A stretch of 64,000 nt of DNA from positions 1-64,000 of the forward strand of contig NZ_JAEKIS010000019.1 in assembly GCF_017311415.1 (NCBI RefSeq), read 5' to 3'. Source of the DNA: Salipiger abyssi (GTDB taxonomy: Bacteria > Pseudomonadota > Alphaproteobacteria > Rhodobacterales > Rhodobacteraceae). A program made the position numbers and the translations under genes. Shown here piece after piece: positions 36,551-44,748 of this stretch (position 1 is its first letter; each line of letters begins with the position of its first letter). The notes beneath the pieces were generated by a model that searched no databases, had not been told where the DNA came from, and was given only the letters and a program-made list of their open reading frames with translations.

Positions 36551-36565
36551 TGGTAGCGGAGGAGG
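36551..36565. repeat. Attachment site copy att (left end of the element)
   Basis: TGGTAGCGGAGGAGG, identical to the tRNA-Met 3' end at 44672-44686. The left copy also starts a hairpin with the next bases (GGTAGC-GGAGGAG-GCTACC). Confidence 0.85.
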
Positions 36566-36682
36566 CTACCGATGCAATGTCTGCCAGCATCTAAGGCCGT
36601 CTAAAATACCATTTGTTCACAGCTACTTGATAAGCAAGCATGTCTGCTACCGTCTTGAAATGGGTGCCTAGTTCTGCCAGAT

Positions 36683-36706
36683 TTCTTAGGCAGAGATTAG
36701 GCAGAG
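36683..36706. repeat. TTCTTAGGCAG-type repeats near the left end (possible integrase arm sites)
   Basis: TTCTTAGGCAG (36683-36693) and ATTAGGCAGAG (36696-36706) lie in direct orientation 118 bases inside the left att site. The same words occur near the right end (44601-44619) and, inverted, at 39096-39116 and 41802-41814. Confidence 0.65.
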
Positions 36707-36715
36707 GGTTAGGAC

Positions 36716-38128
36716 ATGCGGGAAATCTATCGGCTAAGCGACAGGGCGGTGCGGGCAATCACAGGGCCAGAGCCGGGCAAGACGGTCATGCGCCTGAACG
36801 ACGGCGGCGGGCTGTTCCTTCGCGTCACCAAACACAAGAGCAAGCAAGGCGTCGAACGCGTGTCGAAGTCATGGGAATTCTTCTTCACGTTGAACAGCAA
36901 GACTTCCTGCACCGGCCTTGGCCCCTATGCGCCGAACGATAAAGCACCCGGCCTGACGTTGAAGGCAGCGCGGGACAAAGCGCACGAACTCCGCAAGATC
37001 GTCGCCGAAGGTCGCAACCCCGTCGCAGAACGGAAGGCGGCACGGGCGAACGCCGACGTGCGGAAGGTCGTAACGTTCGCCGACGCGTTGGACGACTATA
37101 CGAAGGGCGGGCGCGTTCAGGGTTTCAAGAGCGAACGCCACCGGCACAACTGGCGGGCCAGCATCGAAATCCATGCCCTGCCGAAGATTGGTGACATAGA
37201 CGTTGGCGCGATTAGCCGTAACGACATTGAAAGCGTGCTGGAACCCCTGTGGGCAACCAAGACCGAAACCGCCCGCCGCGTTCGTATGCGGCTGTCGAAA
37301 GTCTTTGAATGGGCGATCTATAAGGGTTGGCGCGAAACCGACGACCCGTCTTCGCTTAGTATGCTTAAGGTCTGGATTGACAACCAAGGCGCAGCCGAAA
37401 AGAGCCACCACCCCGCATTGCCGTTGGAAGATATGCCCGCATGGTTCGGCGAACTGCGGAAGCGCGACGGTATGGCGGCGCGGGCGCTAGAACTTCTGGC
37501 CCTGTGCGCCGTGCGGCAGGACAACGTTATCAACGCGACATGGGACCAATTCCACGACCTAGACGGCGATAGCCCGACGTGGCGGATTTCGTCGCGCGAC
37601 ATGAAGGTGAAGACCGACAAGGACGGAAAGCCCCTGCCCGAACACCGTGTGCCGTTGCCGAAAGCCGCCGTCGAAATGCTCCGCAGGCTGCCGCGCGAAG
37701 CTAGCCCCCGTAAGAAGGATGGCAGGACATTGGTATTTCCCGCCCCGCGTGGTGGCGAACTTTCCACGGCAGGTATCCGCAAGGTCTTGGAGCGGATGCA
37801 CAATGCGGAATTACGTGCCGGTCGGAAGGGATGGATTGACCCCAACGTGTTGACCAAGCCGGAAGACCCGAGCGAAGCCCCGCAACCGAAAATGGCTGTG
37901 CCCCATGGCTTCCGCAGCACCTTCAAGGACTACTGCGCGCAGCGTGGGTTCGACAATATCCAAAGCGAAATCGCTCTTGCCCACAACGTAGGCGACAAGG
38001 TGTTTCAAGCCTACCTTCGCACCGATCTTGTAGAGCAACGCCGCGCCATGATGAACGCATGGGCCGGATTCTGCCACGGCGACGAACCCACCGCCAACGT
38101 GGTTCAGCTTCGTGAGGCAACAGCATGA
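36716..38128 (+). CDS. Tyrosine-type site-specific integrase
   Basis: A 470-residue integrase of the P4-like type: an N-terminal arm-binding DUF4102 region (AITGPEPGKTVMRLNDGGGL, LTLKAARDKAHELRKIVAEG), a SAM-like core-binding domain and the catalytic domain. The first catalytic Arg is in ALCAVRQDNVINATW, the H-x-x-R box in VPHGFRSTFKDYCAQ, and the last His and Tyr in ALAHNVGDKVFQAYLRTDLV. It would recombine the tRNA-Met att site. The gene starts 150 bases inside the left att copy and overlaps the next gene by four bases. No ribosome binding site of note before ATG 36716 other than TTAGGAC. Confidence 0.92.
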   Translation: MREIYRLSDRAVRAITGPEPGKTVMRLNDGGGLFLRVTKHKSKQGVERVSKSWEFFFTLNSKTSCTGLGPYAPNDKAPGLTLKAARDKAHELRKIVAEGRNPVAERKAARANADVRKVVTFADALDDYTKGGRVQGFKSERHRHNWRASIEIHALPKIGDIDVGAISRNDIESVLEPLWATKTETARRVRMRLSKVFEWAIYKGWRETDDPSSLSMLKVWIDNQGAAEKSHHPALPLEDMPAWFGELRKRDGMAARALELLALCAVRQDNVINATWDQFHDLDGDSPTWRISSRDMKVKTDKDGKPLPEHRVPLPKAAVEMLRRLPREASPRKKDGRTLVFPAPRGGELSTAGIRKVLERMHNAELRAGRKGWIDPNVLTKPEDPSEAPQPKMAVPHGFRSTFKDYCAQRGFDNIQSEIALAHNVGDKVFQAYLRTDLVEQRRAMMNAWAGFCHGDEPTANVVQLREATA

Positions 38129-38619
38129 CCGATAGCAGGCACGAAGACCTTGCCGCATTCATCGGTTGCACAGTCGCCGACGTTGAAACTGCATTCGGTG
38201 ACTTGTTCGGCTTCGCGCTGTGGGCAGCGGAACGTTCGGAAACCGGGGTGGCAAAGAAGGAAGCGACGAACCTGCGCGCCATCGCCGATGAACTGGACAA
38301 AGTGCCCGGTTCCGATCTTAGCGACATGCGCGACGAATTACAGATGCGCGCCAAGGCCGCAGAGCATTTCACAGACAATCGCGCATACCCCGCGACCAAA
38401 GGCCGTAGGGAACGGGCGCGGGTTATCGCCTGCGCCGTAGCACGCGTTTTCGTGGCGACCGGGCGCAACATCGGCAAGGGCACGTCACAGAACGATGCGG
38501 GCGAACCAACGTCGAAATACGGGCAGGCGGTCAAGCAAGCCCTTGAACTGTATGGAATTCGGGCGAATTGGCGTCAGCCCGCGAAGGACGCAGCGGCCCA
38601 ATATAGCAATACCAACTAA
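38125..38619 (+). CDS. Hypothetical protein of the element, coupled to the integrase
   Basis: A 164-residue soluble protein, Ala/Glu/Arg-rich and mostly helical by appearance: DLAAFIGCTVADVETAFGDL, EATNLRAIADELDKVPGSDL, RARVIACAVARVFVATGRNI, ending in a short polar tail. Its start overlaps the integrase stop (ATGA), so the two are made together, which suggests a role in integration or its control. I recognise no domain. Confidence 0.7.
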   Translation: MTDSRHEDLAAFIGCTVADVETAFGDLFGFALWAAERSETGVAKKEATNLRAIADELDKVPGSDLSDMRDELQMRAKAAEHFTDNRAYPATKGRRERARVIACAVARVFVATGRNIGKGTSQNDAGEPTSKYGQAVKQALELYGIRANWRQPAKDAAAQYSNTN

Positions 38620-38679
38620 CCCCCGATTTTTCATTTCAGTTGGCATTTTTTCAGGGCGCGGCGTTTCGGTCAATTTTCA

Positions 38680-38701
38680 CACATGCCCCCATAGACATGT
38701 G
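38680..38701. promoter_or_regulatory. Inverted repeat before the AlpA-like gene
   Basis: CACATG-10-CATGTG, ending 12 bases before the ATG of the AlpA-like gene, in an A+T-rich stretch. Candidate operator for that regulator or for an outside repressor. Confidence 0.45.
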
Positions 38702-38713
38702 AGGAACCTACCA

Positions 38714-39016
38714 ATGAGCACCCCGACCACCGACGCTAGCAAGCCCGGCCCCACCTTCACCCCCGCGCAGCTTGTCCCGAACGCCCTTCTGCGAACCCCC
38801 GCCGTTTGCACCGTCACCGGCATGGCCCGCCCGACGCTCTATCAGGCGATGGCCGAAGGGCTGTTCCCCCGACCGATCAAACTTGGCGAAAAGTCTTCGG
38901 CGTGGCCTGCGTCCGAAGTGAACGCCGTGCTTGCCGCCCGCATCGCCGGTCGCAGCAACGACGAAATCCGCGAACTTGTCACCGAACTGACCGCCGCGCG
39001 CAAACTCCGCGTTTGA
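38714..39016 (+). CDS. AlpA-family regulator / excisionase-like protein
   Basis: A 100-residue DNA-binding protein of the AlpA type: LLRTPAVCTVTGMARPTLYQ, then AMAEGLFPRPIKLGEKSSAW and PASEVNAVLAARIAG. In phage P4-like elements AlpA proteins act as activator or excisionase for the adjacent integrase. GAGGAACC lies just before ATG 38714; the longer open frame from 38495 is not used. Preceded by an inverted repeat, followed by a perfect hairpin at 39021-39043. Confidence 0.85.
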   Translation: MSTPTTDASKPGPTFTPAQLVPNALLRTPAVCTVTGMARPTLYQAMAEGLFPRPIKLGEKSSAWPASEVNAVLAARIAGRSNDEIRELVTELTAARKLRV

Positions 39017-39020
39017 CGCT

Positions 39021-39043
39021 ATGGCAGCACCATACGCTGCCAT
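39021..39043 (+). terminator. Hairpin after the AlpA-like gene
   Basis: ATGGCAGC-7-GCTGCCAT, a perfect 8-bp stem starting five bases after the stop codon, followed by TCTTCGTCG. Likely a weak terminator. Confidence 0.5.
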
Positions 39044-39095
39044 TCTTCGTCGTAGTTATCTGAAAAACATAGATAAGTGCAGGGGCGCATTTACT

Positions 39096-39116
39096 TGCCT
39101 AAGCCCTGCCTAAGAA
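39096..39116. repeat. Inverted copies of the TTAGGCA repeat before the replication gene
   Basis: TGCCTAAG (39096-39103) and CTGCCTAAGAA (39106-39116) are the reverse complement of the end repeats, placed directly upstream of the primase-helicase start. They could serve as its operator or as iterons. Confidence 0.55.
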
Positions 39117-39126
39117 CAGGCACGAC

Positions 39127-41037
39127 ATGACCGCGCAAACCGCATTAGAGAACATACCCCAAGAACTGCGGTCGTATCCTCAATGGGTATGCCACGACGC
39201 AGCAAAACGCCCGATCAATCCCCACACGGGGCAGCTAGCCGACGTGTCCGACCCTACGACATGGGGCAGCTTCGACCAAGCCCGCACAATAGCCGAAGCC
39301 GGGCGGTGCGCAGGCGTCGGCTTCGTGTTCACCGATAGCGATCCGTTCGTTGGTATTGACCTTGACGTGTCCGAAGGCTCGGGACCGTCCGACGGGCAAC
39401 AACGCATCTTCGGGGCGTTCAACACCTACGCAGAACATTCGCCGTCCGCGCGTGGCCTGCATATTATCGCCAAGGGCAGGGTATCCGACGGCGGCGTGCG
39501 CAACAGCGCATTGGGCGTCGAAGTCTATTCGTCGGGCCGGTTCTTCACGTTTACGGGCAACGTTGTGCGTAGCGCACCGATTGCCGAATGCCAGCCACTT
39601 GTTGACGCGCTGTGCGCCGAAATCAGGCCACACCGGGACACAGGGGCGGGCGAAACGCCAAACCCATGCCCCGCGCCGCAGATCACCGACGAAACCTTGC
39701 GCGAACGCATCTGCGAAAGCGCCGCGAACCGGGACTACTACGAAGGCCGCGTGTCGGATTGGTCAGCCGCATACTTCGCCCTGATTTGCGCCGCGTGCCT
39801 CTTTTCCAGCGACGAAGCGCAGGTGCGCCGTATCGTTATGGCAAGCCCCTTGGTGCAGGACGCTCCGCCGAAGGGCCGTGAGACGCGGGCACAGAAGGCC
39901 GAACGCCTGTGGGCACGGGAATACGCCAGCGCCGCCCGCAGGGGCGCACAGGAACGGCAGGAACGCACGCAGGCGGTGGAGCATGGGCGACAACTGGCCG
40001 CTGGCCTGTCCGGGCAGCTAGCCCGCGCCACGGCCCCGGCACAGGGCCAGGACGAAAAGCCGGGCCGGTCGCTGCTACGTTCGGCCCGCGACCTGCAACA
40101 CCGGCACTTCCCCGCGATCCGTTGGGCCGTGCCGAATGTCCTGCCCGAAGGTTTGACCATTTTTGCGGGCGTGCCCAAGGTCGGGAAAAGTTGGTTCGCC
40201 CTTGATGTTGCCCGCGCCAAAGCCGACGGCGATTGCGTGCTTGGGCAGCAATGCGACCGCGGCGACGTGTTGATGCTGGCCCTTGAAGACAACGAACGCC
40301 GGTTGCAGGACCGTTTTCGTCGGATCACAGGCGGGGGCGACTTCCCCGACAACCTCGACTACGCGACCGAATGGCCGCGCCTTGACGAAGGCGGCGTAGA
40401 CTACGTTGCGAACTGGATTGAGGGTGCGGCGAACCCTTCGCTTATCGTCATTGACACGCTCGCCATGGTGAAGCCGGTGCCCACAGGGCGGAACAAATCG
40501 GCCTATGACCACGACGTGAGCGCGTTGAAGCCGCTGCACCGCCTTGCCAGCGAAAAACGCGTGGCAATCGTCGTGGTGACGCACACCCGGAAGGCGCAAG
40601 CCGACGAACCCGTAGAACGCGTAAGTTCGACACTTGGCCTAACCGGCGTCGCCGATACGATCATGCTTTTGGGGCGTGGCCCCCGCGAAGCTACCGGCAT
40701 TCTCTATGCCCGTGGCCGGGACATTGCCGAATTTGAACTTGCGGTGAAGTTTGAAGATCACCGTTGGCAGGTCGAAGGCGACCCGAAGCTAGCCTTCGCA
40801 GGCGACACGCAGAAAATCCTAATCGACGCCATGACCAAGGGCGCAACCACGCCGAAGGAAATGGAAGAAGCGACCGGGCTTTCGGGCGAAAACGTGCGCC
40901 AAACCCTGCAACGTATGGTCAAGGCACAGCGCGTTTTCCGGCATGGCTACGGGAAGTATGCCTTGCCCGCATGGACCGACACCCCGGCTTTCCTCCTAGA
41001 TACCCCCCATCACACTAGTCACAGTCACAATGGGTAG
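39127..41037 (+). CDS. Primase / RepA-type helicase replication protein of the element
   Basis: A 636-residue replication protein. Residues 1-190 look like a primase-polymerase domain (metal-binding FVGIDLDVSE, then SARGLHIIAKG). About residues 330-560 form a RecA-like hexameric helicase of the RepA/AAA_25 type: Walker A GVPKVGKSWFALDVA, Walker B SLIVIDTLAMVKP, VAIVVVTHTRK. The C-terminus is a winged helix (GATTPKEMEEATGLSGENVR). It should start and unwind replication of the excised element. A 29-bp direct repeat begins within its last codons, possibly the origin. Domain boundaries are estimates. Confidence 0.85.
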   Translation: MTAQTALENIPQELRSYPQWVCHDAAKRPINPHTGQLADVSDPTTWGSFDQARTIAEAGRCAGVGFVFTDSDPFVGIDLDVSEGSGPSDGQQRIFGAFNTYAEHSPSARGLHIIAKGRVSDGGVRNSALGVEVYSSGRFFTFTGNVVRSAPIAECQPLVDALCAEIRPHRDTGAGETPNPCPAPQITDETLRERICESAANRDYYEGRVSDWSAAYFALICAACLFSSDEAQVRRIVMASPLVQDAPPKGRETRAQKAERLWAREYASAARRGAQERQERTQAVEHGRQLAAGLSGQLARATAPAQGQDEKPGRSLLRSARDLQHRHFPAIRWAVPNVLPEGLTIFAGVPKVGKSWFALDVARAKADGDCVLGQQCDRGDVLMLALEDNERRLQDRFRRITGGGDFPDNLDYATEWPRLDEGGVDYVANWIEGAANPSLIVIDTLAMVKPVPTGRNKSAYDHDVSALKPLHRLASEKRVAIVVVTHTRKAQADEPVERVSSTLGLTGVADTIMLLGRGPREATGILYARGRDIAEFELAVKFEDHRWQVEGDPKLAFAGDTQKILIDAMTKGATTPKEMEEATGLSGENVRQTLQRMVKAQRVFRHGYGKYALPAWTDTPAFLLDTPHHTSHSHNG

Positions 41038-41072
41038 CCCTCTCTAGATACCCCCCGTCACAGTAGTAACAG
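40996..41072. repeat. Duplicated 29-bp direct repeat after the replication gene (possible origin)
   Basis: Copies at 40996-41024 and 41044-41072 share 26 of 29 bases (CTAGATACCCCCC, TCACA, TAGT and ACAG are conserved), with a 48-bp period. Directly after lies a GTGACTGTGACGGCTGTGAT-type stretch (41078-41097) that mirrors the CACAGTCAC words. A position next to the replication gene suits an origin or iteron. Confidence 0.6.
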
Positions 41073-41128
41073 AGAGAGTGACTGTGACGGCTGTGATTGT
41101 GATCCCTTAAAGAAAGGACCGCCCCGCC

Positions 41129-41710
41129 ATGTATGTTCACGACGCAATCACCCATAGCAGGCTTTCGGACCTATTCGACATGGCCGAAGACATGATACTT
41201 GGACGCGGCTGCTATTCGCCCGACGTGGTGGAGCAAGTGCTTTTCGACCGATACATGTATTTCGTGTCGGCTTATCTGTCGGGATGCACGCAATATCTTC
41301 TGACCGAAGAGCGTTGTGCAGGCGAAAGCTTTATCTGCGAACTGTGCGAGAAAGCCGGGGCGACGAAGTTTCTGCGCTATAGCTACAAGATGGCCGAACA
41401 ACTCATGGCGCAACCCCGCTTCTACTTCCCGAATTTTGAGCAAATGGCGACCGCAAAGTATCTGGACATGCTCAACAACATAGACGACGTTGACCGCCTG
41501 CGGTTTTCCGGCTTGGTGTTGTTCGCCGTTGCGCACATTCCCGGTGCCCGAAGCGACATGCGCCGCATTCTACGTCGTAGGGGCATTGACGGTGGCGAAC
41601 GGTATATCCCGACGCTTGTTGCCGACGAAACCATGACGCAGCGTATCCGCGCGGTGCAGGGGTTGCCCCCTGTGGGGAAGGGCCGAAAGCGCATTCGCAA
41701 GCACGCGTAG
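41129..41710 (+). CDS. Hypothetical protein of the element
   Basis: A 193-residue protein with an acidic helical N-terminal half (LFDMAEDMILGRGCYSPDVV; four cysteines, three of them between residues 54 and 74) and a basic C-terminal end (VGKGRKRIRKHA). The four-cysteine content could bind a metal. AAAGAAAGGACC precedes the ATG. Not recognised. It stands alone between the repeat region and a 260-base gap. Confidence 0.65.
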   Translation: MYVHDAITHSRLSDLFDMAEDMILGRGCYSPDVVEQVLFDRYMYFVSAYLSGCTQYLLTEERCAGESFICELCEKAGATKFLRYSYKMAEQLMAQPRFYFPNFEQMATAKYLDMLNNIDDVDRLRFSGLVLFAVAHIPGARSDMRRILRRRGIDGGERYIPTLVADETMTQRIRAVQGLPPVGKGRKRIRKHA

Positions 41711-41970
41711 AATATATGGTAGCCATATAGGCTGCCGATTTTCGGCATAACTACGTGTAACGAATCAGGATTTTCCCGACGCAGTTTCCCCGCCTATAGA
41801 TTGCCTAAGAACAGTCTGAAATATCAACGCGCTTTCGTTCGCATAAACTATTTTTGTCTTCATTTGTCTATTTTGAAACTCATGCCTGAATTCGTTTGAC
41901 CGCTTGGAATTGACCCGGCTTAGCTTTCGATAAGACGCCCATAATGGGCCGGAATTGACGGGTTCAGGCA
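41711..41970. other. 260-bp gap in the element with hairpins and a TTAGGCA repeat
   Basis: Contains TATATGG-TAG-CCATATA (41713-41729), GCCGA-TTT-TCGGC (41734-41746), one inverted repeat copy TGCCTAAGAACAG (41802-41814) and two GGAATTGAC words before the next gene. It probably ends one transcript and starts the four-gene cluster. No clear -35/-10 pair was found. Confidence 0.45.
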
Positions 41971-42231
41971 ATGGAAAACGCAGCACCTACAGCGGCATGG
42001 GGCAACACCCCCCACCCCCAAGAGGGGAAAGCCCGTCGTGTGCGCGTGAAGCTGGATAGCGTGACCGACGCCCGCAAGGAAATGGCGAAGCTATACCGCG
42101 AAGCCCGCGCCGGGAAAATCGACGTGCAGGACGCAAGCCGCTTGGCAAACATTCTCATGCTTATAGGTCGCATGATCGAAGGCAGCGACTTTGAGCGCCG
42201 CCTAGAAGCCCTTGAAGCGGGGGAACGGTAA
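41971..42231 (+). CDS. Small phage-type protein, possibly packaging-related
   Basis: An 86-residue protein. After a Pro/Ala-rich start it reads VRVKLDSVTDARKEMAKLYR, EARAGKIDVQDASRLANILM, LIGRMIEGSDFERRLEALEA. Small proteins of this pattern are often encoded beside terminase genes in prophages, which hints at DNA packaging (recalled resemblance, not proven). The ribosome binding site is weak. Its stop overlaps the start of the next gene by one base; first of a four-gene overlapping cluster. Confidence 0.65.
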   Translation: MENAAPTAAWGNTPHPQEGKARRVRVKLDSVTDARKEMAKLYREARAGKIDVQDASRLANILMLIGRMIEGSDFERRLEALEAGER

Positions 42232-42491
42232 TGGCCTGCCCCGCAATCGCCGCACGCCTGAAACGGCTGGAAACCCGCAACCGACCGCCCGTCCGGGTTC
42301 ACGGTTCCGTCGCGCGGTTCACGCCCCAAGGCCAGCTTATCGGCACCATGCCGAAGGGGCCGTGCATGATCGTGACCGACCACGGGTCCGACGACGAATG
42401 GCAGGCCGCGCTATTGGCGCAGCAAGCCCGACTTATCAACGAAGCAAGCGAAACAATCGCAGAAGAAGAAGGAAATAGGCACAATGCGTAG
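42231..42491 (+). CDS. Hypothetical protein of the element
   Basis: An 86-residue protein starting with a basic stretch (AIAARLKRLETRNRPPVRVH), a beta-rich centre (GSVARFTPQGQLIGTMPKGP, CMIVTDH) and an acidic helical end. It starts at the last base of the upstream gene (TAATG) and overlaps the downstream one by eight bases, so expression is tightly coupled. No recognised family. Confidence 0.6.
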   Translation: MACPAIAARLKRLETRNRPPVRVHGSVARFTPQGQLIGTMPKGPCMIVTDHGSDDEWQAALLAQQARLINEASETIAEEEGNRHNA

Positions 42492-43209
42492 CGTCATGGG
42501 AAGCCCCGCAATCGGGCACGCAGAAGGGAATAGCGTTCATCTTGTCCCGTCGCGGGCAAACACGATCCAGAATTTGCGCACAAACACTTGGCTGCGCATC
42601 AAGCTTGGCGACCCGGCGAAGCTTCCGAGCGTGAAGAACGATCTTGAAGCCCTGTTTTCCAAGGTCACGGCGACGACCGAAAAGGCGCAGAAGCTAGCGG
42701 GCGACCGGACGCGCAACAAGGCGCAACAGCACATGGCCGCGCACGAACTTGCCGTGCAGCTTTCCAGCGACCTGCGGCGTCACGCCCAAATTTTCGGGAA
42801 GAAGGCCAATGAACTCAAAGACGACGGGCAGGCCGTCGCCGACGAAATCTTGGGACCGCGCGATAACTATGGCTATCTGCAATCCGAAATCCGGGGCTGG
42901 ATCAGGGACCAAATCAAGACACCGGAAGGGATGCAGAAGGTATCCAACGCCTACAAGGTGGATTTGCAGGTCGCATCCACCATCTATTCTTCGCCGTCGT
43001 TTCTCATGGATATGACCGACCAATTGCATTCGACCATGCGCTTGAAAGCCGTCGAACTTTTCGCGCCGTCGGGCTTCAAGCTGTTGAATGAAGGTGTCGA
43101 ACTTGCCGACAAGGTGCAGAACTACGAACGCGTCGTAGGCGACGTGCATTCGTCGTATTACTCGCACGAAGTCGTTGAAGCGGCACAGGCAAGCCGCGTC
43201 GAAGTCTAA
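42484..43209 (+). CDS. Hypothetical helical protein of the element
   Basis: A 241-residue, mostly helical soluble protein: SVKNDLEALFSKVTATTEKA, MAAHELAVQLSSDLRRHAQI, GYLQSEIRGWIRDQIKTPEG, TDQLHSTMRLKAVELFAPSG. No catalytic motif or membrane segment is seen. It overlaps its neighbours on both sides (eight bases upstream, one base downstream), so it belongs to a four-gene unit that may form a complex. The family is not recognised. Confidence 0.65.
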   Translation: MRSVMGSPAIGHAEGNSVHLVPSRANTIQNLRTNTWLRIKLGDPAKLPSVKNDLEALFSKVTATTEKAQKLAGDRTRNKAQQHMAAHELAVQLSSDLRRHAQIFGKKANELKDDGQAVADEILGPRDNYGYLQSEIRGWIRDQIKTPEGMQKVSNAYKVDLQVASTIYSSPSFLMDMTDQLHSTMRLKAVELFAPSGFKLLNEGVELADKVQNYERVVGDVHSSYYSHEVVEAAQASRVEV

Positions 43210-43709
43210 TGACCGCCGCGACGGACATAGCAAAGCTGGTCGCATGGATTGCGGCCAGTAGCCCGGCGAAGCGGCCCGCGCCGATGCACGGCTATGTGCA
43301 GGTGCCGCCCTATGCGTGCCTGTGGCCGATTGACCCCGCCGTTGCGGCCTATCCCGATTGGAGCGGGCTAGGGGAGCGCCAGTTGCCCTTGTGCGTGCCC
43401 ACAGCAGCCCTAGCCGCCCCGGTGATGGATCAGCGCCTAGGCTGGTCCTGTGCGGCCCTGCCAGCCGTTTCCGAGCGCCTGCACCATATCATGCACCATG
43501 TGCCGGAAAGCCGATGGGACGTGCCCACCTGCCTAGCTGTGGGCATCACTTCGCCCGCAACCACGATCAACGCCGCCCTTGCCGCCGAAGGCTTGGCCGT
43601 AGACCTGACCGAAACCGCCTTGCTTGCCGTGCCGCTCTATACCGTTACCGCGTCGGATCGTGCCCGCACCCTTGAAGTCTGCCGCAGCACCTACGCCGTC
43701 GCCGTCTGA
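43209..43709 (+). CDS. Hypothetical protein of the element
   Basis: A 166-residue Ala/Pro-rich protein with three cysteines and several tryptophans: DIAKLVAWIAASSPAKRPAP, YVQVPPYACLWPIDPAVAAY, VSERLHHIMHHVPESRWDVP. Last gene of the overlapping cluster (TAATG junction), followed by a terminator. I recognise no domain; the codon use is like the rest of the element. Confidence 0.6.
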   Translation: MTAATDIAKLVAWIAASSPAKRPAPMHGYVQVPPYACLWPIDPAVAAYPDWSGLGERQLPLCVPTAALAAPVMDQRLGWSCAALPAVSERLHHIMHHVPESRWDVPTCLAVGITSPATTINAALAAEGLAVDLTETALLAVPLYTVTASDRARTLEVCRSTYAVAV

Positions 43710-43740
43710 CATAGCTACCCGAAGTGCCAAGGGCAACTGA

Positions 43741-43779
43741 CCCCGGTTCGCGTTCAACGACGCAGCCGGGGTTTCTTTT
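43741..43779. terminator. Terminator between convergent genes of the element
   Basis: CCCCGG (43741-43746) pairs with CCGGGG (43766-43771), with inner GCGT/ACGC pairing, then TTTCTTTTC. It ends the plus-strand cluster just before the convergent minus-strand gene. Confidence 0.65.
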
Positions 43780-44420
43780 CATTCGTCAGGCGCAGGACGC
43801 GGCGGGATATACGAAACTGGCCCCATTGTCTCAGCCCCTTCAAAGTAGAAAAGCCCAAATTCGTCGGCAAGTTTTTTGATAGCACTAGACTTCCAAATCA
43901 CTTTCGGCCCGCCGTGGTTGATAGCCCAAGCAACCATTCCCGGCTTTGGGTCATCTATCATCAGGTCAAACCAAACCTTTTCATCGGGCTTCCAAACCAC
44001 ATTGTCGGGCAGCAATGCTTTGAGGAAAGGCGCGCACCTTGCAATGTCGCACCAAACTTCGGCAAGCGTGTCCCTCAAACCGACGTCTCTACTGGACATT
44101 GTGACAAGTCGATAAACCATCGCCGCCCACATGAACCAAGCGAACCGACGCATATTGATCTCATCTCTAGCGGCAGACTGTTTTTCAGCGCATTCAATGA
44201 TGAAGTCATCTATCGAGAATGCCGAACCCTGTTGCTTTGCAACGTTGTGCATCGCGCCGACAATTGGAATCAGGTTTTGATACGCTACAAGCACATGCGC
44301 TTTTGTCGCGTTGTCCAATCCATCAAATAGTTCTTTGACGAAGTTCGCATAGTCAGCGTTCCCGCCGTTGAGTATTGCTCGCAACGGGTTCTCAGTCTTC
44401 TTTTTCAGGAACCCGAACAT
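43779..44420 (-). CDS. Hypothetical protein of the element, only gene on the minus strand
   Basis: A 213-residue protein: FGFLKKKTENPLRAILNGGN, NFVKELFDGLDNATKAHVLV, RRFAWFMWAAMVYRLVTMSS and the end WKSSAIKKLADEFGLFYFEG. One hydrophobic helix is possible in the middle. The chosen ATG at 44420 follows GGGGGTATTTG; an ATG at 44435 adds five residues. It lies beside the right end of the element and is read opposite to all the other genes there, the place where accessory cargo such as phage defence often sits. Function unknown. Confidence 0.65.
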   Translation of the reverse strand: MFGFLKKKTENPLRAILNGGNADYANFVKELFDGLDNATKAHVLVAYQNLIPIVGAMHNVAKQQGSAFSIDDFIIECAEKQSAARDEINMRRFAWFMWAAMVYRLVTMSSRDVGLRDTLAEVWCDIARCAPFLKALLPDNVVWKPDEKVWFDLMIDDPKPGMVAWAINHGGPKVIWKSSAIKKLADEFGLFYFEGAETMGPVSYIPPRPAPDE

Positions 44421-44600
44421 CAAATACCCCCGCATTTACAGCCATAGTGATCTAAGCACTTCGAGGGCGCGGTTGGGAAGAGTTTTCGGGCCGAACCCAT
44501 GTCGTTCGACCGGACGGCGACCACAGAAGGGTGCGGCACGCGGTCACGTCTTCGTGAGCGCGTGCGGGGCTTTCGGGGCCGATTTAACGGCTGTCCGAAC

Positions 44601-44619
44601 CTAGGCAATTCTTAGGCAG
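44601..44619. repeat. TTAGGCA-type repeats near the right end of the element
   Basis: CTAGGCA (44601-44607) and TTCTTAGGCAG (44609-44619) lie 53 bases inside the right att site. The eleven-base word is identical in sequence and direction to the one near the left end. The stretch 44436-44671 has no gene. Confidence 0.65.
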
Positions 44620-44671
44620 GGCGATTTTCTGCGAAATTTTCTTAGCTATTTCAATATGTTATAAGGGTAAA

Positions 44672-44748
44672 TGGTAGCGGAGGAGGGACTTGAACCCCCG
44701 ACACGCGGATTATGATTCCGCTGCTCTAACCAACTGAGCTACTCCGCC
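44672..44748 (-). tRNA. tRNA-Met (CAT anticodon), integration site of the element
   Basis: A 77-nt cloverleaf on the minus strand: acceptor GGCGGAG/CTCCGCT, D-arm GCTC-AGTTGGTTA-GAGC, anticodon stem GCGGA/TCCGC with loop ATCATAA (anticodon CAT), T-arm GGGGG-TTCAAGT-CCCTC and encoded ACCA. The body resembles alphaproteobacterial elongator tRNA-Met; it lacks the A11:T24 and C1-A72 features of initiator tRNA. tRNA-Ile2, which also has CAT, is less likely. Its last 15 bases are the att core. Confidence 0.9.

Follow-up and report, generated by a model that had tools for sequence, protein, structure and literature searches.

A compact tRNA-Met element of Salipiger abyssi and its relatives: putative phage satellites of a PICMI-like plan

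What kind of DNA lies between two copies of the 3' end of a tRNA-Met gene in Salipiger abyssi? The window analysed in this work is a stretch of 64,000 nucleotides of contig NZ_JAEKIS010000019.1 (coded C19) in a genome of 5.21 Mb (coded G000), and the element in question occupies 8,136 bp of it, from 36551 to 44686. An earlier reading of the letters, called here the original prediction, had taken it for a satellite of the P4 type or of the type of the phage-inducible chromosomal islands (PICI). Phage satellites have been described mainly from Enterobacterales, Vibrionaceae and Firmicutes, while the bacterial group to which this host belongs is abundant in the sea. The reading favoured here, drawn from gene plan and homology and given a probability of about 0.73, is that of an integrated phage satellite built on the plan of the phage-inducible chromosomal minimalist islands (PICMI). 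The element is real and is no single oddity, being one member of a family that has moved between hosts in evolution.

The ends of the element are sharply defined by a 15-bp attachment (att) repeat, TGGTAGCGGAGGAGG, present in two exact copies on the plus strand. The attL core is at 36551-36565, and the attR core at 44672-44686 is the 3' end of the tRNA-Met(cat) gene itself, which lies on the minus strand at 44672-44748. Allowing up to two mismatches, the 15-mer has two matches in the 64-kb window against 0.14 expected; allowing up to one, it is found at two places only in the 5.2-Mb genome, where the reversed pattern used as control is found at seven. The exact repeats at tRNA-Met of the original prediction are confirmed by this count. 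The G+C content is 58.9%, against roughly 60-65% in the flanks, and a tRNA was the sole match of an Rfam scan. All six congeners fetched have the tRNA-Met core, and in none of them were orf2 or orf5-orf10 of the element found, except for a tail of orf9 elsewhere in one (G001). The core without the element's genes supports an empty site, though the left flank varies: beyond the core that of the window matches two of the six congeners only (G004 with a 20-bp alignment, G006 with 14 bp). In one congener lacking the element (locus L114, G019:C6:326500-332000) the 15-bp core is present twice, at 1111 and 2212, 1,101 bp apart, perhaps because the site was also used by some other small element, or because a remnant persists there.

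The order of features is the integrase gene (int), orf2, AlpA, the replication gene (rep), a repeat-rich tract, orf5, a 260-bp control region, the overlapping orf6-orf9, a hairpin and T-run, the oppositely oriented orf10 and attR. The tyrosine integrase (36716-38128, plus strand, as are all genes up to orf9) matches PF13356, PF22022 and PF00589, all over cut-off, and has no second relative at E 0.001 in its own genome. It is overlapped by an ATGA with orf2 (38125-38619), a protein of 164 amino acids (aa) with no family match which holds the position of the int-overlapping gene (iolg) of PICMI. The AlpA-family regulator or excisionase (38714-39016; PF05930, E 4e-14) is followed by the replication protein (39127-41037), composed of a phage primase-like N-terminal half (phrog_3022, E 1e-49) and an AAA_25 ATPase C-terminal half (PF13481, E 2e-26). 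The primase half aligns with the primase of Paracoccus phage vB_PmaS-R3 at 40% identity, and this alignment covers 38% of the protein. The primase region is also the only DNA in common with phages, in 11 of 50,697 phage records, and no packaging site common to these records and the element was found. Seven genes are unassigned. An integrase, an AlpA regulator, a primase-helicase and unknown genes had been predicted; the Pfam and PHROG matches bear this out and make the replication protein a primase-ATPase. The predicted lack of structural and conjugation genes also holds, no such family being matched in the element apart from a weak small-terminase match of orf7.

Relatives were collected by scanning short patterns from the orf8 alignment against 84,980 species (8 loci) and by genome searches. 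Six other att-bounded elements were found, and all seven span 6,970-8,503 bp between tRNA repeats of 14-17 bp. They are carried by the metagenome-assembled genome bin.31 (L084; tRNA-Ser(cga), 8,503 bp), Mameliella sediminis (L085; tRNA-Ser(gct), 7,986 bp), Anianabacter salinae (L086, the same locus as L072; tRNA-Met with the same 15-bp core, 7,294 bp), Roseovarius sp. 217 (L088; tRNA-Ser(cga), 7,741 bp), Thalassovita taeanensis (L089, the same as L079; tRNA-Glu, 8,328 bp) and a member of another alphaproteobacterial family (L122; tRNA-Ser(cga), 6,970 bp). By tblastn the integrase, AlpA, orf6 and orf8 are present in the same order in all six; a replication gene stands between AlpA and orf6, and cargo, where present, lies before attR. 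The same search finds orf7 in L084, L085, L086 and weakly in L122 (E 0.003), and orf9 in L084 and L085; in L088 and L089 both are recognised by position and alignment (22-25% identity for orf7, 32% for orf9). The replication module is more variable. The PrimPol-like and AAA_25 parts are fused in the window and form two open reading frames (ORFs) in L089, and a DUF3987 (PF13148) module passes the cut-off in L084 and L088, stays below it in L085 and is recognised by eye only in L122; the replication ORF of L086 has no Pfam match.

From the 185 ORFs of these six relatives a choice of 79, most of them either oriented like the element or lying in the cargo slot, was scanned against PHROGs and Pfam. 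Besides cargo domains and primase families, the integrase (6), AlpA (6) and the small-terminase family phrog_5334 (4 members) were matched. The 25 of 29 PHROG families listed and the 11 Pfam families include none for capsid, tail, lysis or relaxase proteins. The original prediction had named capsid or conjugation genes in full-length relatives as evidence against a satellite, and none is among the matches listed for the 79 ORFs; it had also proposed a search for the same set of int, alpA and primase at tRNA genes, and the six att-bounded elements carry int, alpA and a replication gene.

Counting the genome of the window itself, an orf8 profile finds 11 of 394 genomes of the bacterial family, an orf6-orf9 query 27 of the 394 at E 0.01 (12 reaching 1e-4) and an orf6 profile three of 385 genomes of the class. 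Within the genus, a query of orf2 and orf5-orf10 finds the element in one of twenty genomes, and one other has only the tail of orf9 beside a tRNA-Ser. Remnants keeping part of orf8 or orf9 are found beside tRNA-Glu or tRNA-Ser (L073, L075, L081, L082, L138, L140 and L141), with no attL copy for the four tested (L073, L075, L081 and L082). As searches based on orf6-orf9 miss remnants without these genes, selection for cargo retention is possible at most. The DNA from before orf6 into orf8 is 96% identical between the window and L084, and that from before orf6 through orf9 is 94% identical between the window and L085. Both elements belong to other genomes and occupy other tRNAs; their integrases share no more than 43% and 34% identity with that of the window, and the orf9 of L084 no more than 37%. 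Near-identical late DNA beside divergent integrases and at other tRNAs suggests a recent transfer of the late block, either from element to element or from host to host.

Among published elements PICMI comes nearest, a group of islands of the Vibrionaceae with the gene order int-iolg-alpA-prim; according to the available text of PMC10803314, 21 of 35 subfamilies have an int-overlapping gene, with an overlap of 1, 4 or 13 nt, an accessory locus, with defence genes in some, lies between prim and fis, and AlpA can induce excision by itself. PICMI are further characterised by excision under helper-phage induction and by packaging as concatemers in full-size heads. As far as that text describes them, the islands share with the present elements the order int, int-overlapping gene, alpA and primase, a length of 6-8 kb, the lack of capsid genes and accessory genes that come after the primase and before the attachment gene. 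In the window int, alpA and prim stand together; in all six elements checked int is overlapped by 1 or 4 nt (with start codons chosen by us, an ATGA overlap in the window), and L084 and L088 have the DUF3987 primase type of PICMI over cut-off, with L085 below. There are differences also. In the same portion of PMC10803314 integration at fis is a hallmark of PICMI, complete copies of which are reported from Vibrio genomes only and incomplete variants from elsewhere, whereas these elements use tRNA-Met, tRNA-Ser or tRNA-Glu and reside in Rhodobacteraceae and one other alphaproteobacterial family, not in Vibrionaceae. The primase of the window is PrimPol-like with AAA_25, and not the DUF3987/PF13148 with DUF5906/PF19263 of the PICMI model, and a block orf6-orf9 between rep and cargo sets it apart from the six-gene prototype as the paper's available text gives it. 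The element thus follows PICMI in plan, while its site, its host and its primase set it outside PICMI proper, and some elements of the family may be among the 68 PICMI-like matches outside the Vibrionaceae (135 less 67) which that text counts.

The original prediction therefore stands for the satellite-like mobile element at a tRNA gene, given six att-bounded relatives of 7.0-8.5 kb and a common plan, and is imprecise in calling it P4/PICI-like, since only the integrase and AlpA match P4 and PICMI fits best in plan. Compared with the 13 proteins of P4 (NC_001609), the integrase is of the same family (E 6e-23) and AlpA matches orf88/vis (E 2e-15), whereas primase alpha is unmatched, Sid, Delta and Psu are without homologue (hhalign probability 0.1-0.2, no HMMER match) and the orf6-orf9 block has no homologue among the P4 proteins. 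The late-operon proteins of P4 with 244 and 166 aa resemble orf8 and orf9 (241 and 166 aa) in size, which is not homology; an assignment of orf8 and orf9 as Sid and Delta, which the sizes would fit, was dropped when profile comparison gave nothing. PICI of the Gram-negative type are composed of an integrase, AlpA, a replication module, a small terminase or another packaging-redirecting protein, and a cargo slot. The element has the integrase, AlpA, replication module and cargo slot and a possible, weak relative of the small terminase, while no packaging protein of known PICI type was identified; here the comparison is with the description of PICI and not with their sequences. The capsid-forming PICI (cf-PICI) have an integrase and AlpA of the type found here. 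Like them, one viral contig (L117, described below) has head-like genes, placed beside a homologue of orf6; unlike them, neither the element nor the matches listed for the 79 ORFs of relatives include a capsid, portal, protease or head-tail protein. VEIMEs and tycheposons, marine integrative elements thought to be virion-borne in the available texts of PMC10803314 and PMC11389934, can be likened by description only; a literature search for VEIMEs found the mention in PMC10803314 alone. Literature searches for phage satellites in Rhodobacteraceae, in Rhodobacterales or in Alphaproteobacteria with AlpA found no report, nor did one combining SatelliteFinder, PICI and alphaproteobacteria; on roseobacter phage satellites one work was found, which in its available part concerns elements with likely archaeal hosts.

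The original suggestion that the remaining proteins may include packaging, hijacking or defence functions is plausible: orf7 has some likeness to the end of a small terminase, and nuclease-like or defence-like genes occupy the cargo slot of some relatives. The late block is preceded by orf5 (41129-41710, 193 aa), whose counterparts have 87% identity in L084 and 53% in L085 and whose place is taken in L088 and L089 by an ORF without family matches. The most conserved core protein is orf6 (41971-42231, 86 aa; alignments A5 and A8). The next, orf7 (42231-42491, also 86 aa), is similar to the C terminus of a small terminase, where the large terminase would be bound. The match, which is the one packaging match of PHROGs on the element, is to positions 119-159 of the 162 of phrog_5334 and is weak (E 1.3e-6); with E allowed to reach 1, five of seven orf7 homologues have it, the best at 7e-7. 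As the common small terminase of these bacteria orf7 was rejected: phrog_5334 was found in one of 61 relatives, namely this element itself, so that orf7 is not called a small terminase. The all-helical core protein of the family is orf8 (42484-43209, 241 aa), modelled by AlphaFold2 with a mean pLDDT of 89.6; VIA-align returned helical bundles with a best Z of 9.9, within the range of which its note warns. The block ends with orf9 (43209-43709, 166 aa; alignment A7), whose model is of middling confidence (pLDDT 74), and a terminator-like hairpin and T-run read by eye on the plus strand at 43741-43780, overlapping the conserved DNA left of the cargo slot in some relatives. The most likely role of orf6-orf9 would be the takeover of packaging or head assembly, in which orf7 may be a packaging-redirecting protein.

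Two viral contigs hold orf6 in another setting. IMGVR_UViG_3300048597_000412 (L117, 2038-8573) carries capsid-like, tape-measure-like and gp10-like ORFs, after which come the homologue of orf6, a pair of small ORFs and a gene of pentapeptide-TIR type; a tRNA-Glu lies at the contig end. It is possibly a capsid-forming relative. In IMGVR_UViG_2767802272_000008 (L118) a set of int, AlpA, AAA and orf6 adjoins P2-like tail genes and is cut by the contig end. Head, tail and pentapeptide names in both are our reading of the translations, and the TIR is a profile match.

A short word recurs in the control zones of the element. On the minus strand of the attL arm two control boxes (TGCCTAA) lie 11 bp apart at 36686-36703, two more with the same spacing precede rep on the plus strand (39096-39113), one is found at 41802 in the late control region (41711-41970, plus strand) and one on the minus strand of the attR arm (44612-44618). 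The test, prompted by words common to both arms, was for any 7-mer present in all four control zones (the attL arm, the gap between AlpA and rep, the gap before orf6, of which a part was used in L086, and the attR arm), against 1000 dinucleotide shuffles. Such a 7-mer exists in three of six elements, TGCCTAA with overlapping words in the window, CTACTAA/TAGTAGA in L084 and CTACCCA in L085, and in 2, 2 and 1 of the 1000 shuffles, respectively. All six occurrences in the window's element fall within the zones, which make up 8.2% of its length; in the relatives this is so for 7/7 in L085, 5/6 in L084, 6/7 in L086 and 4/6 in L089, the patterns having been widened by one letter for L084, L086 and L089. 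Wherever boxes occur, in five elements, all copies in the arm zones are reverse and all in the promoter zones forward, often as pairs 11 bp apart, and L089 has one box before its ORF at the orf5 place. That one box recurs at the rep and late promoters and, in the opposite orientation, at both att arms is a new observation, and it suggests a single switch for excision, replication and late genes, with AlpA as the favoured box-binding protein. The late control region has in addition a pair of TTTGTC words (41853 and 41863), which is present, 10 bp apart and about 118 and 108 bp before orf6, in four of six elements, two of which (L088 and L089) are close to each other there.

A putative origin of replication starts inside the 3' end of rep (40990-41128). 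It consists of iteron-like repeats, GTCAC/GTGAC in both orientations and a 29-nt repeat at 90%, and contains 28 repeated 6-mers against 4.5 in shuffles, a number reached by none of 1000 mononucleotide shuffles. A similar excess after rep is found in all six elements (reached by 0-2 of 1000 mononucleotide shuffles).

In the scheme which we infer for excision, helper dependence, packaging, box binding by AlpA and the roles of orf5-orf10, the integrase would insert the element into the 3' end of tRNA-Met and restore the tRNA. An active helper phage would lead to the production of AlpA, which together with the integrase, and probably the int-overlapping gene, would excise a circle. Through the same box AlpA would switch on both the primase-ATPase, for replication starting at the repeats that follow its gene, and the late operon orf6-orf9, which would divert packaging or head assembly of the helper to satellite DNA; orf7 may contact the helper terminase and orf8 may act on head or connector. 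The family would then probably travel inside phage particles. Taken as a whole, the proposal of a so far undescribed alphaproteobacterial satellite family, in which one switch protein (AlpA being favoured) and one oriented box govern excision and replication as well as orf6-orf9, a four-gene module for hijacking that would be new, with takeover by a new route, is tentative and falls a little short of even odds. An example of such a route would be orf7 as a small-terminase mimic keeping the end that binds the large terminase, without the DNA-binding part.

A number of observations weigh against this picture. L088 has no box (one pattern tried), L086 and L089 have none in the late zone, and the zones were drawn after the pattern had been seen in the window, the other elements being the fairer test. 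In the available text of PMC10803314 expression of alpA in PICMI115 left satellite gene expression unaltered. The gap before orf6, used for comparison with the putative origin, has a weaker repeat excess of its own (reached by 1-204 of 1000 shuffles). Of the unassigned proteins, orf5 is found in two of six relatives only (no tblastn match in L086, L088, L089 and L122) and orf9 is absent or unrecognised in L086 and L122; the small-terminase match is confined to some 41 residues at the C terminus of the family model; the models of orf8, searched in PDB or BFVD, and of orf9 have no Foldseek match at E <=0.001; and orf2 and orf5-orf10 are all unmatched in the 50,697 phage records. No complete element was found in the viral contigs scanned, which offer the two settings of orf6 described above. 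As for a helper, the same genome contains an HK97-type prophage cut by the contig end (G000:C26:13001-42465; L040, L041), with a large terminase (PF03354) and, by our reading of translations, small terminase, protease, capsid and tail genes; neither its DNA nor its proteins match the element beyond chance level, and it is therefore not put forward as the helper.

Other explanations of the element as a whole are easy to formulate. Integrase, excisionase, own replication protein and cargo would also suit a mobilisable island that excises and replicates itself and needs only an origin of transfer to be moved by the conjugation machinery of a plasmid or of an integrative and conjugative element, and elements carrying only an origin of transfer have precedent in the available text of PMC11389934. 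This we consider improbable: there is no relaxase or transfer gene in the element or the 79 scanned ORFs of its six relatives, the sizes are tightly grouped at 7.0-8.5 kb, and the phage-primase-like rep, the small-terminase-end-like orf7 and the position of the orf6 homologue of L117 beside head- and tail-like genes all point to phages. A decayed prophage, now inert after the loss of its structural genes, would explain the phage-type integrase, AlpA and primase, and decayed remnants of the family are indeed frequent (L073, L075, L076, L081, L082, L138, L140 and L141). It is the least credible of the alternatives in view of a plan and size that recur in seven genomes at four kinds of tRNA (Met-cat, Ser-cga, Ser-gct and Glu-ttc), of exact att copies and intact boxes, and of orf6-orf8 DNA still 94-96% identical to that of L084 and L085.

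Within the preferred reading of a PICMI-like satellite, the box and the late block could each be understood differently. The box may be an arm site of the integrase and not a site of AlpA, in which case the integrase would control the promoters or the internal copies would have some other role. The integrase here has an arm-binding domain, the P4 record (NC_001609) contains tandem 12-bp arm repeats on both sides of the att core and in int, and the PICMI115 result cited above speaks against AlpA as a promoter switch. Set against this are the two zones 2.4 and 5.1 kb inside the attL-arm sites, before rep and orf6 and in opposite orientation, and the available text of PMC10803314, in which AlpA is discussed as both excisionase and regulator; we regard the arm site as doubtful, while giving it serious weight. 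Somewhat less probable still, and in our opinion unlikely, is that orf6-orf9 serve the element's own replication and copy control instead of morphogenesis or packaging. No structural homology points to a virion role of these proteins, and the small-terminase match is short; yet orf6 and orf8 are kept while replication modules of AAA_25 and DUF3987 types are exchanged, a separate control region precedes the block, and in L117 the orf6 homologue directly follows head- and tail-like genes.

The slot between the terminator of orf9 and attR is occupied in the window by orf10 (43779-44435, minus strand, 218 aa), which is 94% identical in a locus of another genus (L074) and replaced by other ORFs in other relatives. 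The DNA on its left (within 43355-43786) and on its right (within 44529-44648) is conserved, in stretches of varying length, in four remnants across genera (L073, L075, L076 and L081), and the ORF between these flanks differs. The cargo of L072 is a CoiA-like nuclease, that of L075 is SH3-like (just below the Pfam cut-off), and those of L073 and L076 are, by our reading and without Pfam match, HNH-like and PIN-like. PADLOC gave no match for orf10 and two weak matches only on the element (E about 0.01). It matched four of 18 cargo or neighbouring proteins of relatives, ten of which were scanned at E up to 0.1 and eight at E up to 0.01: DrmD in L137 (E 7.5e-33), a TIR in L117 (best E 7e-13), a DruB-like protein in L072 (E 1.7e-5) and PDC-S31 in L090 (E 5.5e-4). 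Matches in relatives and none for orf10 suggest defence for the slot and not for orf10, and the slot probably holds exchangeable cargo that would protect the host against other phages. With its ends fixed exactly, a common orf6-orf9 module and hosts known by name (Mameliella sediminis, Roseovarius sp. 217, Thalassovita taeanensis and Anianabacter salinae), the family makes it testable which phages it rides, how orf6-orf9 would take over particles and whether swappable cargo is a source of new anti-phage genes.

The gene of L137 (G428:C5, 4852-9596) that matches the DrmD profile belongs to a two-gene insert between orf8 and orf9 of a decayed relative at tRNA-Glu. The orf9 tail of the congener G001 (L037, 13235-14707) lies beside its tRNA-Ser with a different cargo ORF and is cut by an insertion sequence-like stretch at the contig end.

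Ahead of the large terminase of the HK97-type prophage lies an ORF of 162 aa with the look of a small terminase, one that is not related to orf7. A second large-terminase gene of the same genome (PF03237; L142, G000:C6:156455-157045) could come from a further prophage or from a gene transfer agent. Near a tRNA-Val, a genome from another family of the class has an orf6 homologue followed by six unassigned ORFs (L123, G714:C4, 6678-9694). Small loci with an AAA_25 gene, most with AlpA and an integrase match nearby, are present in seven further genomes (L016-L022 in G113, G417, G293, G229, G182, G285 and G332); no relative of orf5-orf10 was found in them, and in three of these loci a tRNA-Phe lies within about 7 kb.

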